Of a DNA stretch of 64,000 nt, positions 2,802-36,495 are shown in pieces. Source of the DNA: Utricularia gibba (lineage: Eukaryota > Streptophyta > Magnoliopsida > Lamiales > Lentibulariaceae). Every line of letters starts with the position of its first letter. Position 1 is the stretch's first letter. The stretch lies in contig NEEC01000002.1 in assembly GCA_002189035.1 (NCBI GenBank), positions 5,417,001-5,481,000 on the forward strand, read 5' to 3'. A program made the position numbers and the translations under genes. The notes under the pieces were generated by a model. The model was not told the origin of the DNA, ran no database searches, and saw only the letters and a program-made list of their open reading frames with translations.

Positions 2802-3410
2802 CAATCTAGATTTCCTTTGGGCTTTATACTCGTTGCACTCTCTTCTAGTTCCAGTCACTGCTGCGCTTGATGATTGAAGAGAATTTTCATTTCCCTGAAT
2901 TTAATGGAACCCCGTGAATTGATTTTGCACTTCCTTTGGCTGTCACCTTGATTATGTTTCACTTGTGAATTTACATTATCTTTGGTATTCGATAATTGTA
3001 AGGATTTTAGAGAAATGTTTTATAGGCAATTTCAAGTATGAAATATATTATTTATTGTTGGATTAAATTATCAGAGATCTGATATTGTTGAAATATCATG
3101 CTAAGTAATTATTTTTCCATATTTTTAGTAAAATATCAAATCACATTCGTTTAAATAATTTTAAATCAAACATATAATTTAAAAATCAAGCCTTATTTTA
3201 TTTATAAATAACAATTAAATCAATTTTTTTTCTATTTTTCATTTGAAATTGAACATACCTTTACCAGATTTGACTTCTACAACACGCAAAGTATCTCAAT
3301 TTTCACATTTTCAGGAATATCTTTTTTTGTATAGCTATTAATGTTTGTTTGATTTAAGAAAAGACAATTCTGTCCAAACCGAACTCTTGTTTTTTTAGTT
3401 AAATTTTCCC
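2802..3410. other. Intergenic, TORL 3' flank
   Basis: Holds the 3' untranslated region of the TORL gene (first 150-200 bases, T-rich) and then AT-rich spacer without a supportable ORF. It ends where the duplicated leader block begins. Confidence 0.5.
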
Positions 3411-3835
3411 GCACTGCACACCGTTCAAAAAACAAAACCCCGCGTGTTAGTTTTTATGAGGAACAACCCTAGACCGGTATGTGAGGAATCCGACTCGCAG
3501 CACGTAAGTTTTCTCGTCTCTCTTCCATCTGTAATTTGCAGCGTTGTTTCCTTGCCATTTTCCATTATTCCTACAGTGATTCTTTGCCATTTTCTCTTAA
3601 ATCTCTAAATTTGGTCCTGCTTTTAGTGTCAAGTTTCGATTGAGATGTTGGGTACCTCTAGAAATCATTGTTGGAATCAGATTTCTGCTTAATCTCATCC
3701 ATTCTGCTTTTGGTTTTTCAAGCGTTTATGATTGAGCTGTTATCTATTTATTGTCTGGATGCGCGTTGCAAGAGTATAGGTTCAATTTTTTTTTATCTTT
3801 CGAATGGAAATGGATGCACGTTTAATTTTTATGTT
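3411..3835 (+). repeat. Duplicated 5' leader block, copy A
   Basis: About 400 bp similar to 6611-7030 in the same orientation. Shared landmarks in the same order are CCGTTCAAAA.ACAAAACC, GAGGAACAACCCTAGAC, CACGTAAGTTTTCTCGTCTC (a good splice donor), TGGGTACCTCTAGAA, TTGTTGGAATCAGATTTCTG and GAGTATAGGTTCAAT. Identity falls in stretches, with small indels. Copy B lies upstream of the RNA helicase, so this copy is probably a duplicate of the helicase promoter, 5' UTR exon and first-intron start, now placed before the HARBI1-like gene. Confidence 0.85.
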
Positions 3836-3925
3836 ATCTTGATGGGAGTGGTTATTGGATCAATTTTGTTTTTCTTAATCCTGCTTATGAATTGTTTATT
3901 TGTACAGTCTCTTACAACTTCTGAT

Positions 3926-5194
3926 ATGGAGGAAAAAAGCGCGTTTGTATTTGAGGTTGCACGTATTGTTGCAGAGTACATGTATTCGATGAATCGCCTA
4001 TGCTTTTTGTTTTGGAAGCACCATGATAGACGTTGTAAGAGTAAACTCAAGTACTCTACGAGAGCAAAACTGCCGATGCAAGTAGAACATATTTCGCGTA
4101 CAGTAAGTGATGTTAAGAGTGTTGCACTGGAAAATCTTGGGTTGAGCAGAGATGCCTTCGGGCTTCTGTGCAAAATTCTTGTGGACTATTCGGGACTAAG
4201 ACCTAGCAAGTATGTTGGAGTGAGTGAAATGGTTGCAATGTTTCTAGGCATTTTGAGTCATGAAAAAAGAACGAGAGTGCAGAAACTTGACATTAGAAGG
4301 TCAAAGAAGATAATTTCAAGGCACTTTGAATCAGTTCTCAATGCCGTTCTTGCTCTACATGAAATTCTATTAGCGAAAGCTGTGCCTTCTACTTGTGGAG
4401 ATACTTCCTCTAGGTTCAGCTTTTTTAAAAATTGTGTGGGAGCCTTGGATGGAACATACATTGATGCTCGAGTAAAAGCATGTGATAGAGCCAGGTACAG
4501 AAATCGCAAAGGTAACCTTTCAACAAATGTACTAGGTGTCTGTGACAAAGATATGAAATTCATTTATGTTCTTGCTGGATGGGAGGGATCCGCTGAAGAC
4601 AGTAGGGTGCTTCAAAGTGCACTAACTCGAGCAGACGGCCTTCATGTACAGAGAGGTACATCTTAACATTCAGCATCTTTATATATGCGATGTCAAATTA
4701 ACAAAGGGTTGACATGTAGGTCAATATTATTTGTGTGATAATGGATATGCCAACTGTGAAGGTTTCTTGACACCCTACCATGGTATTCGTTATCAGTTGA
4801 AAGAGTGGGATGTAGATCCTCAAAAATGCTAAAGAATATTTTAACATGCGTCATGCTTTTGCTAGAAATATTATTGAGCGAGCATGGGGTATAATGAAAG
4901 GAAGATGGGGCCATCTTGTAACATGCTTCTTTTGATTCTGTGAAAACACAGAATCGAATAGTTTTAGCCTGTGGCTTGCTCCATAATTTTATTCGCAACG
5001 AGATGCCTATCGATCCTATTGAAGAAGATCTGCCAGAGGGTTATCAGAATGAGGATGCTGACCCAGACATCCTCAAAGAGGATATTTCAAGGGTGCAAAG
5101 CTCCACGACTTGGGATGCTTGGCGTGACAATTATGCTGAGGCAATGTACACAGCATGGTTGAACTCGAAGGAGGAGGTAGTAGAGTCCTCATGA
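3926..5194 (+). CDS. HARBI1-like PIF/Harbinger transposase-derived nuclease, frame broken twice
   Basis: DDE-superfamily nuclease of the PIF/Harbinger class. Exon 1 is 3926-4655 and exon 2 is 4720-5194, with a 64-bp intron. The ATG at 3926 follows a splice acceptor ending at 3907. Family landmarks are GALDGTYID, TNVLGVCDKDMKFIYVLAGWE, EGSAEDSRVL, YYLCDNGYANCEGFL, ARNIIERAWGIMKGRW and LACGLLHNFIRNEM. The catalytic triad is present: Asp at 4448, Asp at 4737 and Glu at 4876. The frame is lost at an A5 run (4823-4827) and again at 4920-4921; ignoring one A at each place gives 1203 nt, exactly 401 codons. I see no terminal inverted repeats and no partner Myb-like ORF. It could be a decayed element, or a domesticated gene with sequencing errors. 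Confidence 0.8.
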
Positions 5195-6610
5195 TTTGAA
5201 GACATGCAAACTACGTCTATTATGCTCTATTTTGAAGTGTGTTGGCTCTCTTAGCAGTAGATTGTCATCTACTTTTGGATCAAAACCCATCTTATTCGGA
5301 AATAGTTTTATGTAGGATTTGTAAATTATAAGTTTGCTAGGTGGGAAACAACTGCAGTATAAGGAATATGTGTTTGTTTTTTAATGTAAATTCAGCATTT
5401 GGATGGAAACACAATGTATTAAATTACATATCATTTTCTTCTTTAAAAAACTGTGTGCCATTATTACCGATATCTCTTGTTTTGTTTTCAAGCATCACTA
5501 ACGATCATTGGTTGTGCCTGAAAATTATATTTAAAAAAATTGCAAGTTTTAGACATTGCTAATTGTCGTTAGTGGTACTAGAAAATTGTATTTAAAAATT
5601 TTGTATGTTCTAATCATCGTTAACAGGTACAGCAATGTTTGGGAATTATATTTTTTAAAAAAAATACATAATTTCCAATTGATTGTTAGCAATGCCTAAA
5701 AAATATATTTTAAAAATCCATAATTAATTTTTATGGGCATTGAGGGAGCTTGGAAACTACATTTTTTTTAAAAAAAAATGCATAATTAATTTTTCAGTCA
5801 TTTTGATATGCTTGTTATGTTGCATTAATTAAAGCCCATGCTTCATGAAGATTTGAGTATTGTTTATTGCTTTTAGGGTTTGCATCCGATGAAAAAAAAA
5901 TCAGTATGAACAACAAATGATATTTTGCATGCTAAAAAATTTGATATCCATAAAAAAGGAAACATTTTGAATGTGGAAAAATAAAATAAAAAAGTGAAAA
6001 GAAAATAAAATATAATAGAAAAGAGCATGAACAAGATGGAGACATTCAGGTACAACAAGAAACCTCTAATTTCATTTTATCATCTAACCCCAAATTATGT
6101 GTTTAGTAGGGTGAATAATTCTAATTTTCTTGGGAGTGGAAATATTATTTAATTGTTTGATACTTAGGAAATACTTAATTATTTCATACACCTCTTTTTA
6201 GGTTATACTTGAATATAAAACACATCATATACATAAACTTCAGAATAACTTGATCTTTTTATTTTTTATCTTGATAATTAAATATTTCTTTTGAAATAAT
6301 TTATTATTGTTTATCTTTTTCAATTTCTTTTCGCATTCTTCTTAAAAAAATGTCATGGGTTTTTTTAGTTATTAAGTTTATTTTCGTACTATTAAATATA
6401 AATAAAGAAAAAAAGACAAATAAAAGTGATAATTTAAAAATTACAATAAATTCCTTTCCTTGGTATGTCAGATTTAATAAATTTAATAATATTAAAATTA
6501 ATTTCAGAATTAGAATATACAAAAATTAAATAAAATTAATTTCAGAAATTTATAAAACATAGCACGGCCCTAATAAGACATCTCGTGAGTCCATGGTATG
6601 CCATCCTCCC
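5195..6610. other. AT-rich spacer between HARBI1-like gene and leader copy B
   Basis: Contains the presumptive 3' UTR of the HARBI1-like gene, then strongly AT-rich DNA with many A and T runs. A loose motif, AATTATATTTAAAAA followed by a GATTGTTAGC-like core, recurs around 5520-5800, but no clean repeat unit could be defined. No gene is supportable. Confidence 0.45.
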
Positions 6611-7030
6611 CATCAAACGCACTACACCCCGTTCAAAACAAAACCCGCCTGTAATTTTTTGTGAGGAACAACCCTAGACTGGCCTCTGAGGAACGGCACT
6701 CGGAACACGTAAGTTTTCTCGTCTCTTTTCCATCTGTAATTTGGCGCTGGCCGTGGTGCCTTGATTTCCGCCTTCATTTTTCCAGCGCCGATTCTTTGCC
6801 ATTTGCTGTTTTGAGTGTCGGGTTTCGATTGAGATGCTGGGTACCTCTAGAATTTATTGTTGGAATCAGATTTCTGCTTAATCCTAATCCATTCGACTTC
6901 TGGTTAGAATATCATGCGCTAATTTTTAGGTTATGATTAGGTTGTTATTTATATATTGCCCGGATGCACGTTTAATGCGAGAGTATAGGTTCAATGTTTT
7001 ATCTTTCGGATGGAATTGGATGTAGAAGTT
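6611..7030 (+). repeat. Duplicated 5' leader block, copy B (helicase side)
   Basis: Second copy of the block at 3411-3835. It contains the telo-box-like AACCCTA (6670-6676) and the conserved donor ACGTAAGTTTTCTCGTCTC, so it is probably the transcription start region, untranslated exon 1 and start of intron 1 of the RH32-like helicase, whose ATG is at 7391. Confidence 0.8.
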
Positions 7031-7357
7031 GGTTTCGATGGTTATGGACCTCGTTTACGCTTAACGGGTGACAATACTGCAATTTCTTTTTTTTTTTTTT
7101 TTTTGTAAAGTAAACTGGTTAGTGGAAAAATGGCGTCGAGAAGTTATTATCTGAATTACACACTTTGAATTCCCTTATTTTTCATCTTTTAATTGCAATG
7201 TTGTTTTGTCTTTCTGGTGGCTTGGTTCTTATATTCATATTCTTTGTAAATGCCATTTACTAAATGGGACCTTTGGGGTTGTCTTGGCTGTTTGGTCATT
7301 TCTGAGGGATTTTTTTTCCATTATATAGATTGTTCCTAAAACCAACTCCATCCAAGC

Positions 7358-7366
7358 AAACCCTAA
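7358..7366 (+). promoter_or_regulatory. telo-box AAACCCTAA
   Basis: AAACCCTAA lies 25 bases before the helicase start codon, in the 5' leader. Telo-boxes are common in plant genes for ribosome biogenesis and translation, which fits the predicted role of the gene. The function here is inferred. Confidence 0.5.
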
Positions 7367-7390
7367 GCGCTGGCCTGACCAAATTTCAGA

Positions 7391-10300
7391 ATGAAGAGGC
7401 CAATATCTAAGAAGCAGAAACTTCAGCATCGCGACTCAGAGGTCCGGGAGATTGAACTGCTGGAATCATGGATTAATTCAGGGAAGCCCAGCCCGGGCTC
7501 AAATCCCCTGTTGTTTCCCTCATTGCCAGAGAAGTCACCGGTTGGCTTGTTGCCCAGCGGATCCTTCTCACAATATGCTGGTGCCGACAGATTCCAGCAG
7601 TTACCACTGTCTATTAAGACAAAAAAAGGTTTAACCTCCGAGAAGTATGTAAAAATGACAGATATACAGAGGGCCTCCCTGCCACATGCTCTTTGCGGCC
7701 GTGATGTGCTTGGTGCTGCTAAAACCGGCTCTGGGAAGACACTTGCTTTTATTTTACCGGTTAGTTTACAATTTAGTACGCTTTGCTCATCTTTATGCAT
7801 CATATCCGATAGGTTTCTTGGAAGTGTAGTTATTGGTCTGGTCGAAGAAAAAATACTTTGCTCTTTTGAGCTGCAATGAATTAATTACTTATGAAATGAT
7901 AAATTTAGGTTCCACATGCACTTATACATCTATTGATTCTCGTGGGATTTTAGAAATGTTAACTGAAGAGGTTTTCAGGTTTTGGAGAAGCTTTATCGTG
8001 CTAGATGGGGCCCTGAGGACGGGGTTGGTTGTATCATATTGTCTCCCACTCGGGAACTTGCAAGCCAGCTTTTTGGAGTATTAAAAGGTGTTGGGAAGTA
8101 CCATGGTTTTAGTGCTGGACTTATGATAGGTGGTCGAAAAGGCGTTGACACTGAGAAAGAGCATGTGAATCATTTGAATATTTTAGTCAGTACTCCTGGA
8201 AGGCTTCTTCAGCACATGGATGAGACACCGAATTTTGACTGTTCGCAGCTTCAGGTGTGATTGTTTGCTTCTGTGTCTAGTTATTTGATGCCTAACTGTT
8301 TCATAGTGCGGCATTTTTAAGATCCACGTGGTTTCTTGCACTTCAGTAGTTTGTTTTTTAAGGATTTTCGTTCTCCAAATATCATGTATGATTCATTAAT
8401 TCTGTTGTTTTCTTAGCTTTTCTGGTAAGCTCTGACTACAAAGGATCTTCACATATACAAGTTCTTATTTACGTTCAGTTTATTATTTTAATAGTTATCC
8501 ACATAGTCATGTCTATATATTGTTTGAGAATTTTGGTTGATCTTGGATTCCATGATGAAATGGCTAGTCACTTTTTTTCATTTTGGGAAGCGAGCAGATA
8601 CTAGTTCTTGATGAGGCAGATCGTCTCCTTGATTTAGGATTCAAGGACACATTAAATGCCATCATCTCTCAACTTCCAAAGAGACGACAGACCCTTTTAT
8701 TCTCTGCCACCCAAACAAAGTCGATTGAAGATCTTGCAAGGCTGGGCTTGAAGGACCAAGAATATATCAGTGTGCACGAGGAGGCACCCACTGCCACTCC
8801 AGACCATTTGGAGCAGAAAGCTTTGATTGTTCCTCTGGATCAAAAGCTAGATATTTTGTGGAGTTTCATTAAGAAAAACCTCAGTTCAAGAATTTTGGTG
8901 TTCCTTTCAACCTGTAAACAGGTGTTTTTTTTTTTGGGTCACGGCCATATGAACTATAATTTTCCTTAAGTTTAATTTTCATGAAAAACTTTGCTTGGTG
9001 TGCCTCTTGCTGCCCCTCTTTACATTATTTCCATGCTTCTTTAGTCATTGCTATTTCATGTATCTATTGTGGTCATATGGTCCAATTGGGTCAATTCGCC
9101 TTGTGGTCATTTACTCTACTATTTTCTAGTATTCACTTTCTGCTGTACCCCCATCATTTATTTGCTTTAGTGCTTACAGGTATGCAGTAATTGACCTACG
9201 ATTTGATATCTGCACATGACAGGTAAAATATGTGTTTGAAGCTTTCAAGAAACTACATCCTGGAATTCCATTGAAATGCCTGCATGGCCGGATGAATCAA
9301 GAGAAGCGTTTGGTAATATATGAACAATTCTGTGACACTGTGTCTGTCCTATTTTCAACTGATGTTGCATCTCGAGGGCTTGATTTCAAAAGGCAGTGGA
9401 TTGGGTAGTCCAGGTTACCATCTGTTTCATTTTATCAAATGCTTAACTTCGATCCTTCTTTCTCAAGTTATGGATTCTGATTTATTCATTTTCGTTCTTG
9501 TGGTATTTCAGGTGGATTGCCCTGATGATGTTGCTTCTTATATACACAGAGTTGGGCGTACTGCTCGTTACTATTCCGGTGGAAAATCTATTTTATTCCT
9601 TGCTCCCTCAGAGGAAAAGATGCTTGAGAGGTTGCAAGAAAGGAAGATTCCTATTCGTCTTTCAAAGGTATGACTTTCAATGGATTTCTGGACGCAGCTC
9701 TTTGTGTATGCATATTAAAAATAATAATTGATCTTGCTTTACAAGTAGTCATGTTAGGGAGCTACTAAGTTGATGACGTTTTGCAGGCAAATCAAACGCG
9801 ATTGCAACCTGTCTCAAGACTGTTGGCCGATCTGCTAGTGAAGTACCCTGACCTACAAGCTCTGGCCCAGAGAGCTTTTATCACTTACTTGAAGTCAATT
9901 CACAAGCAGCGTGACAAAGACGTTTTTGATGTCACAAAACTTCCAATTGAGAAGTTTTCTGAGTCATTGGGCCTTCCTTTGATTCCCAAAATCCGGTTCC
10001 TTAAGCATAAAGTTATGGCGAAAAAAACATTGGAAGACTCACTAAAACGTAATGCTGATCAGATGCCTTTTGAATCATCGAGGGAGAATCTTGAAAATGG
10101 AATGCACGAGGAAGCCGGATTGGAAGTGGATGATGTTTTCCGGAGGAAGGATGATCAGCATGATGACTCATTCTTTCAGGAAAAAGCCTGTGACTATGCC
10201 GAGACAGAAGAAGCAAATCACCGAGGAGATAATTTGTACGTATATTTCTGTTCTCTTTTTCCAGTTACGTGTGTCATGATGCTGCAAAATTGTTTTTAAC

Positions 10301-11164
10301 TAATTTTCTAAGTATATGGTCTTTTGGGCAGGACAACCACCAGAATTGGGAAGAAGAAAAAGTTGAAGATAAACGTAAATAGGCCTGCTGGCACACGAGT
10401 TGTATTTGATGATGAGGGCAATACCTTGAACCCTCTTGCAAGGCTATCTGAAGTGAATTCTGATCCAGATACAGTGAAGCTGGATATGGAGAAGGGTAAG
10501 CTTCTGTTGATTCCTCACTTAATTTTTTCTGGTGGTTGGTCCCGAATGTGAAGTATAAATCATAAGCTCAAGATTCCATTCATTATAGGAACTAATTTTC
10601 ACAATTAAAGAAAGCGAGTTCTGAAACAAAAGTAAAAACAGATACTCTTGCAAATGAGTAATTCGAAAGTCTTTCTTTCAATAGAGATGTGGAATCACCT
10701 TCCTGTTGATTAAATTCAAGAAAAGTTTACTCTGCATGTTTTGGATTGATTTTGAGTACACAAGTAGTTTTTTTCTTCCTTAAATTTTGGTTAGTTGTCT
10801 TCCAACTTAGATACAGTTTCATGTCTGCTATGCTGTGAGGTGGTTGTGTCTCATCTCTGACTTTTGGTTTCCAGTGAGCGAAAGGTACTCTAAACTGAGG
10901 GAAGAGATGAAGCTCATTGACAAGGAGGATAAAGCATTGGACCGGCAGCGCATGAGGGAGAAGCGCATCAAACAGAAGATAAAGCTGAAGAAGAGGAGGG
11001 GTGACGATACGGCGGAGCCGGAAACCGTACGCGAATTGGCTCATGAGAAGAAGAAACCAAAGATCAACGAAGATGCCAACAACCAGATTCTTCGTCATGA
11101 TCTGATTACAGTTGCAGAGCAAGAAGAACTCGCCCTTAAGCTACTCAGTTCAATGCATTCGTAG
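7391..11164 (+). CDS. RH32: DEAD-box ATP-dependent RNA helicase 32-like (DDX10/Dbp4 family)
   Basis: Nucleolar RNA helicase of the Dbp4/DDX10 type, expected in 18S pre-rRNA processing and release of U14 snoRNA. Exons: 7391-7759, 7979-8254, 8598-8921, 9223-9413, 9512-9667, 9787-10235, 10332-10495 and 10875-11164. Motifs in order: Q motif (FQQLP...KMTDIQ), Walker [10 protein letters not shown] near residue 110, PTRELA, DEAD box VLDEADR near 218, [14 protein letters not shown] near 368 and HRVGRTAR near 400, then the family's [16 protein letters not shown] block. The C terminus is Lys/Arg-rich, as usual for this family. Exon 4 is one base short: at the A run 9388-9391 the frame shifts just after motif V, and one added base restores KAVDWVVQ and the splice phase, giving 739 residues. 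Confidence 0.92.
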
Positions 11165-13100: not shown

Positions 13101-14910
<1,810 letters not shown>

Positions 14911-33610: not shown

Positions 33611-33830
33611 ATAGTATTACACTATCGGGAGACGCATAAAAAATCATTGGATGATGACTATTATTTTACTTCCACTTTATTTTATTTGTACTTTAAATAT
33701 ATGCATATGTTAAAAACACTGTAAGAAAATTGAAGTGGATTTTCTTTTTCTTCTTTGTATCAATCCCTTCCTTCGCTTCCTTCCAGCTCGAGTGTTTGAT
33801 TTCTCACATCTCTAAAGACATGCTTGTTCA
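33611..33830 (+). repeat. Left LTR of copia remnant
   Basis: Matches 36264-36495 through TATTACACTAT, TTTTATTTGTA.TTTAAATAT, TTCCTTC.CTTCCTTCCA and CTTGTTC. It ends in CA and is followed at 33831 by TGGTGCGGTGAG, which starts with the TGG expected of a tRNA primer site, though I cannot name the tRNA. Confidence 0.75.
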
Positions 33831-36263
33831 TGGTGCGGTGAGTATGGATCTGAGAAAAATGACAACTCTGAAACTATAGGAAAAAAATTAGTAGACTCTC
33901 CTAAGTTAGATATTCTTTATTTGAGAAGACTACTCCAACTTCTTCAATCTTCAAGAGTTGATGTATCAGATCCATTATATATATGTGGATTTGAAAACCT
34001 TGATCTCATTCTTATTCAACCTGCACTTACAACAAGAAATTATCTATCTTGGCAGCGAAATATGACCATGGCTTTAGAAGCTCATAGCAAGTTAGGTTTT
34101 GTGAATGGAGTATTGCCAGACCCACTACCATCTAAGGTATCTTAAGTTTTCTGTAATAGGATGGACGTCATGGTGAGGTGGTGGTTCATTAATTCCATTT
34201 AAAAAGAATTAGAAAATAATTTCAATTCCAAAGATACAGGTATGGAACTTGGGATACGATAAAGAAACAACTTGGACAAATGAATTTAGTTGTAATTTAC
34301 CATATACAACATGAGTTGTATCATTTTTCTCAAAGAGCAATGATAGTTAGTGATTATTATGCAAAAATGAAAAATTTATGGGCATACTTAGAGGGTTTGA
34401 TGCCATTCAATCAATGTGATTTGCAAGGATACCAAAGGAGCGCATACGACCAAATTGATTAAGCTCGTGAATGGCTTGAATGAACATTTTACCCCACAAA
34501 GAATCAAGTGATCATCATTAGGCCAGAGCTTTATTTAGATCAAGCATATGTAATGATTGTAGCAGTGGAAGTTGAAACGAAAATGAGGTTAGTTTCATTG
34601 GTTCTAGAAAGTGCTTGAATGAGTAATCAATATGTGAGCTACAATCAGTAATAGTTGAGGGCAACAATGCAATTTGTAGTCTCATCTGCTCAAATAATAG
34701 ATCCTAAAAGTCGAGTGTGTAGTTATTGTAAAAGCGAAGGTCACGTAAAAGACACTTGCTACAAACTACATGACTATCCTGCTAACCAAAGAAAAAGAAA
34801 AATCAAAATCAAATATCTTTTGTGAAAATAGTATAAGCTAGCCTGCTAAAGTTCCCTAGTTATTGAGAAAATGAAATACATATTAGTGAATAAAAAAAAA
34901 CAATTCATGGAAGATTATTCAGCAAGAGCTGCTCAATCTGGTTTCTCCATAGTCACAATTTAGTGCAATTGAGTAGACTCATTATGTTTTCAAGAATTAT
35001 GCAACTACATCTGTTAGTTTGAATGTTATTTTATCTTTGATGGGTAATAGAGACTAGATAATTGACACTAAAGCCACTATTCATTTATGTACCAAAAAAT
35101 CAATGTTTTCCTATCTAAGTTCTTTATCTAAACTTGTGACCATTTTATTTCTTGATGGTTTTAATCAACTTGCCACACATAGCTATTTTGTTATGTTGTT
35201 ATATGTATTAACACTTCAAGACGTCATTTATGTTCCCACTTTCAAACATAATTTACTTTTCATTTCCAGACTTGCGAGCTTCATCTCATTCTTCATAACT
35301 AATACTACTCTATTTTGCAAGATCATGTATCCAGCAATATCATAGCAGTTGATATCCAACGTCATGGGCTATTTATGTTGAAACATCGTTCTGTTTTACC
35401 ACATACCATTCAATTGTACATCTTTGATTTGCAAGACAAATTGTCTTTAGAACAAAAACATCTTTTGTTACATTCAGGTGGTCTCTTTTTGACTTCCATG
35501 GCTATGTATTGTGCACATGTCAATTCTACTTATTCACATTTATTGTGGCATAATAGATTGGGTCATGTCTCAAATCAACATTTTCTATTAGACTGCTTCA
35601 CTCATAACAATCCATGTGATGTTTGTGAGTATGCTTAATTCTATAGGTTACTATTCACCCCAAATGAAAATTGATTATCCCATCCATTATTTTTATTATA
35701 TTGTGACACTTGGGAGCCTTACTTCACAACCATTGTTATTGGTCAAAATGTGTTTATAAAGAAAATTTGAAAGCCGATATGACTTTCGAGAAGGTAAAGC
35801 ATGATTGGTTTCTAAGGGTTATACCCAAATCGAAAGATCAGATTATTTTGATATTTATGCTAACCAAAAAACAACACATAGTGTCATGCTACTCTACAGA
35901 GGCAAAATATCAATGTCTTGGATCAACCTCTCTTGAATTATTATGGGTCTTTTATTTGGCACATGACCTTGGCATTGTTTTTCCCAAATCGATTTCTTTT
36001 TTGTGTGATAGTCAATATGCTTTACATATTACAAAGAATCCGGTTTTTCATGAGAAAACTAAGCATTTAGATATAGATTGGCATTTGGTTCATGACTTCT
36101 TTAAGATTGATTTTTTACTTCATCAGTTTGTTTCTTCATGGTCACAAATAGCCGATTGCTTCATAAAAGCCCTTGTTGCTCCTGCATTTCAACATCTCTT
36201 GTCCAAGTTGCGCGTTCGTGCTTTCCGAGTACCCAACTTGAGTACCCAACTTGAGGGGGGGAG

Positions 36264-36495
36264 GATATTACACTATTAGGAGACACAAATGCATATGGAT
36301 ACAAAAGAAATTATTGAAAGATAACTCTTATTTTATTTTTATTATATTTTATTTGTATTTTAAATATAAACATACATTAAGAATACTGTAATAAGATTGA
36401 AATAGATTTTCTCTTTCTTATCTTCATCTCCTTTCCTTCACTTCCTTCCAATTTGAGTATTTGGCTTCTCACATTTCCAAAGACACGCTTGTTCT
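36264..36495 (+). repeat. Right LTR of copia remnant
   Basis: Preceded by a purine tract (GAGGGGGGGAGGAT, about 36253-36265) that serves as polypurine tract. Divergence from the left LTR is clear by eye, so the insertion is old. Confidence 0.75.

Follow-up and report, generated by a model that had tools for sequence, protein, structure and literature searches.

A duplicated segment of a helicase gene precedes a disrupted Harbinger transposase gene in Utricularia gibba

Genes and features of the locus

The window, i.e., the whole stretch of 64,000 nucleotides of Utricularia gibba DNA that was analyzed, contains a DEAD-box helicase gene and, upstream of it on the same strand, a transposase gene. 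A block of about 400 bp lies in front of both genes, and the two copies are designated block A (transposase side) and block B (helicase side). The features are the following:

3410–3503, + strand: leader part of block A, a copy of helicase exon 1 (86.5% identical to 6618–6708), with an ATG at 3456
3504–3816, + strand: intron part of block A, which starts with the donor GTAAGT (86.6% identical to 6709–7022)
3908–4655, + strand: first coding exon of the transposase gene; the putative acceptor AG ends at 3907, the ATG is at 3926, and the exon matches DDE_Tnp_4 (3.8e-07)
4656–4719, + strand: GT-AG intron of the transposase gene, 64 bp, at a position common to its relatives
4720–5194, + strand: last exon of the transposase gene, with the DDE glutamate codon at 4876, frameshifts near 4822 and 4907, and a TAA at 4919–4921
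5195–6617, no strand: AT-rich spacer in which no transposon end, Myb-like ORF or helicase remnant was found
6618–6708, + strand: leader of block B, i.e., helicase exon 1, with GTG where block A has ATG
6709–7022, + strand: remainder of block B, the start of helicase intron 1, the acceptor of which ends at 7389
7391–11160, + strand: coding exons of an RH32/DBP4-like DEAD-box helicase, found as a single copy in the genome (G000), with a frameshift near 9387

The DEAD-box motifs could be read directly from the translations of the helicase exons, and by recognition we take the gene to be of the RH32/DBP4 type. The C-terminal exon has one match in the genome, and the gene is single-copy as far as found. 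The assignment of the second block copy to an RH32-like helicase in the initial annotation is supported. Within an A run near 9387 (9379–9418, GLDF..VDWVVQ motif) the helicase frame is shifted by a single base, probably through an assembly error. A homopolymer frameshift in a single-copy helicase gene makes short indel errors of the assembly plausible, and thus the frameshifts of the transposase gene are uncertain. A gene for a chloroplast ornithine transcarbamylase at 13445–14907, in which no frameshift was seen, was used informally to gauge the level of assembly errors; its closest relative of solved structure is 8qeu.

The gene behind block A had been described as HARBI1-like, and its identity as a PIF/Harbinger transposase is supported by the match of exon 1 to DDE_Tnp_4 (PF13359; E 3.8e-07, 30.3 bits at a cut-off of 24.8). 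All three residues of the DDE triad are encoded (Asp codons at 4448 and 4598, Glu codon at 4876), whereby the positions were set by family motifs and not by a solved structure, and the E codon lies beyond the first frameshift. For its family, the genome contains at least 181 exon matches. A search of viral contigs yielded no relatives of the transposase.

Two further features of the window were recognized by eye. The gene at 1–2800, upstream of the locus, is presumably TORTIFOLIA1/SPIRAL2-like, and the ORF fragments at 33816–36276 are taken to be a decayed Ty1/copia element, represented by gag and protease-like pieces.

A duplicated leader and intron start

The two blocks (3410–3816 and 6618–7022) were found as a same-strand match of about 400 bp with blastn (264 bits, E 5e-74). 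In the pairwise alignment they are identical at 322 of 372 ungapped positions (86.6%; K2P distance 0.149) with 14 gap events, and the score of 364.5 is far beyond the maximum of 33.5 that was reached by 100 dinucleotide shuffles. The donor context, CAC at the exon end followed by GTAAGTTTTCTCGTCTC, is the same in both blocks. It had been claimed that a block of this size is present twice in the same orientation and shares leader sequence, an AACCCTA motif and an identical donor region, and the alignment verified all of this. The boundaries had to be adjusted: the block has a length of about 407 bp instead of 425 bp, the earlier coordinates being slightly too long at the 3′-end, where the similarity of block A to block B peters out at around 3816–3870, and the putative first exon of copy A ends at 3503 (donor GT at 3504) and not at 3502. 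The AACCCTA motif is located at 3465–3471 in block A and at 6670 in block B. This telo-box-like motif was dropped as evidence, because by itself it is frequent by chance and therefore uninformative (12 occurrences in the window versus 7.1 expected). In the 100-Mb genome the block was found at these two places only. The helicase leader is thus truly duplicated, together with its donor site and the beginning of intron 1.

The initial annotation had gone further and proposed that a housekeeping promoter was duplicated. This was not upheld. The two blocks have in common the leader, a perfect donor site and the first part of intron 1, and the sequences 5′ of block A and block B are unrelated. The sole TATA-like string (6551) and the sole GGCCC (6566) in front of the helicase gene both lie upstream of the start of block B, and therefore the block is a leader plus intron and not demonstrably a promoter. 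Pieces of AT-rich dispersed repeats precede both leaders, at about 3083–3257 (A) and at 6470–6565 (B).

A rival reading is that copy A is used by the helicase gene itself, as an alternative first exon that is spliced from 3503 to 7390, with the transposase gene residing as a relic inside a long intron. Both copies have the same donor context on the same strand, and the acceptor at 7389 would be usable by both. Against this, leader and intron sequence of block A show equal divergence outside gaps (86.5 and 86.6% identity), which gives no sign of special upkeep of the exon, and an intron of 3.9 kb as well as a promoter outside the copied block would be required. An alternative helicase exon is thus regarded as unlikely.

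The sequence between the two blocks (3817–6617) was searched for similarity to the helicase gene with blastn and tblastx, and none was found. The suggestion that the arrangement arose by tandem duplication followed by insertion, or by unequal crossing over, is therefore not supported, because a surviving duplicate of 3.2 kb should have left helicase exons behind. A tandem duplication of the whole helicase gene, with reduction of the upstream copy to its leader and insertion of the Harbinger element there, predicts two leaders in the same orientation, as they are observed. However, blastn and tblastx revealed neither helicase exons nor the rest of intron 1 between the copies, despite the 86.6% identity that the leader has kept, and an additional large deletion would be needed, so that this scenario is rated as slightly less probable still than the alternative exon. 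A short direct duplication plus an insert therefore fits better than a tandem duplication of 3.2 kb.

State of the transposase gene

Exon 1 of the transposase gene contains 243 codons without stops or frameshifts. The reading frame of the whole gene is not intact: two frameshifts disrupt the last exon, the first within an A run near 4822 and the second between about 4907 and 4934, and the same exon also contains the TAA at 4919–4921. Scored against a profile derived from its relatives (RW[GA]ILR..SFY.VKTQN), the frame RWAIL*HASFDSVKTQN (asterisk: stop) obtained 106.6 bits versus 95.3 bits for the stop-free reading, and in this best-matching frame a near-invariant Arg is represented by the TAA. 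Two other readings were considered and rejected. A position of the second frameshift in a T run, which would avoid the stop, was discarded because the profile prefers an upstream G/C run by 11 bits; a missed intron was discarded because the sole GT-AG stretch seen has about 42 bp and would delete conserved residues. Errors of the assembly could account for the frameshifts, but a homopolymer effect does not produce such a nonsense codon.

Relatives in the genome have a TTA/TAA followed by a GGGCGCGTTTGG-like terminal repeat at about 510–600 bp 5′ of the aligned ORF start. In the nearest relative, L060 (C1:4088140), which has 55% protein identity and carries three stops, the end TTA-GGGCATGTTTGATAC is located about 660 bp upstream. 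For the window copy, the terminal repeat was sought by pattern on both sides, and the matches did not exceed chance and none flanked the gene. A search for inverted repeats around the gene yielded AT-rich chance arms only, and no ORF of more than 73 amino acids that could represent the second, Myb-like ORF was present at 5195–6617. Between the transposase ATG and the helicase-derived block there are about 90–110 bp. The transposase's own 5′-region is gone or unrecognizable, and the copied leader occupies its place.

Selection was gauged by counting the changes per codon position on the branches of a family tree. In the nucleotide tree the window copy groups with L060 (support 0.92); the protein tree lacks resolution at this point. 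The changes at codon positions 1, 2 and 3 amount to 23, 20 and 33 on the branch of the window copy and to 28, 24 and 34 on the branch of L060, and by this measure the window transposase shows no more constraint than this dead sister. The divergence of the blocks corresponds to about 0.075 substitutions per site in each copy. Under neutrality since the duplication, the indel rate of the block predicts about 14 indels for exon 1 and about 23 for the whole coding sequence. Two frameshifts were seen overall, and exon 1 has no frame-breaking indel. Given this shortage of indels, the insert must postdate the duplication, or else the gene was shielded for some of this period.

Origin of the arrangement and comparison with known systems

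A splice acceptor had been predicted directly in front of the transposase start codon; a usable acceptor sequence indeed ends at 3907, and the ATG was placed at 3926. With the predicted splice from 3503 to 3908, the ATG at 3456 in the copied leader, which is a GTG in copy B, runs for 16 codons in phase into the transposase. The odds of such a phase agreement by chance alone are 1/3, and the putative in-frame fusion ORF is thus a coincidence that is suggestive of a fusion only. The copied leader may be transcribed, and it may give rise to a fusion transcript.

It is tempting to speculate that the leader has captured the transposase, i.e., that it drives the ORF and is spliced onto it, which would yield a stable and selected chimera, possibly truncated, that starts with MRNNPRPVCEESDSQH. 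Such a capture would account for the perfect donor, the acceptor at 3907 and the ATG at 3456 in phase through the splice, for the replacement of the transposase 5′-region and terminal repeat by the leader, and for indels that are far below the block-based neutral expectation; the homopolymer frameshift in the helicase gene adds that local indels may be sequencing errors. In contrast, a homopolymer effect does not explain the TAA at a near-invariant Arg, no extra constraint shows relative to the dead L060, and the catalytic residues are unaltered, as in a transposon relic. Capture is therefore judged to be as doubtful as an alternative helicase exon. The most far-reaching version, in which leader and donor were duplicated in front of a transposase devoid of its 5′-region and a transcribed, selected in-frame chimera resulted, with the frameshifts being assembly errors and the stop defining a shortened functional protein, is very improbable. 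Domestication, for which the initial annotation had seen a route here, is not supported by the gene as it reads: its frame is shifted twice and, in the best-matching reading, is stopped within a conserved motif, the DDE triad is retained, and there is no sign of constraint beyond that of the dead sister.

The preferred reading, to which we assign a probability of roughly 0.6, is that a helicase segment of about 0.4 kb forms a direct repeat around an insert of 2.8 kb that holds a degenerate Harbinger transposase relic without recognizable ends. The locus has the look of a common genomic scar and not of a gene that was recently co-opted. The direct repeat would have arisen as a short duplication, before or together with the insertion (fill-in repair of a staggered break being one example), and what remains of the transposase gene would by now be a relic in decay. 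By chance, the copied leader could be spliced onto this relic (donor at 3503, acceptor at 3907), and the transcript would then be non-functional or truncated. The repair of staggered breaks is one known way to generate short direct duplications, and in plants short direct duplications flank inserts that were formed by break repair. Like these cases, the locus has foreign DNA bracketed by direct repeats that are a few hundred bp long.

Compared with other PIF/Harbinger (HARBI1/ALP1-like) plant transposons, the window copy has the same DDE_Tnp_4 domain and DDE triad, and it shares its intron with dozens of copies in the same genome. Complete family members in this genome carry TWA target duplications along with GGGC...TTTGG ends, whereas the window copy has no recognizable ends and no Myb-like partner ORF, is frameshifted, has a nonsense codon and lies behind a copied host leader. 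ALP1, ALP2 and PANDA are functional domesticated Harbinger transposases that have been studied (PMC4671723; PMC7282668; PMC9129072), and like the window gene they belong to this nuclease family and reside in the gene space of plants. ALP1 is conserved across land plants, and two of the three residues of its triad have changed, yielding DGA (PMC4671723). The window gene, in contrast, retains the DDE triad, and its frame is broken, unlike those of the functional ALP1, ALP2 and PANDA.

A further comparison concerns host-transposase fusions by exon capture, such as KRABINER, SETMAR and CSB-PGBD3. Under the model of Cosby et al. 2021, as cited in PMC12062965, the likeness consists of a host 5′-exon with a donor and a transposase exon with an acceptor, which are in phase. 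In contrast to these fusions, the host part at the present locus is a copy of an untranslated leader, the transposase frame is disrupted, and the fusion transcript is a predicted one. An expressed fusion would document, in a physically traceable way, how a plant transposase gains host expression signals. On present evidence, the locus mainly illustrates that duplication of a leader beside a transposon relic can mimic domestication.

Two observations were made on the wider family in the same genome. L013 and its relatives are Harbinger elements with TTA/TAA target duplications and GGGCGCGTTTGG ends. Many members of the L013 family have a frame break near residue 167, which is absent from the window copy and from L060, and this break is probably an extra intron.
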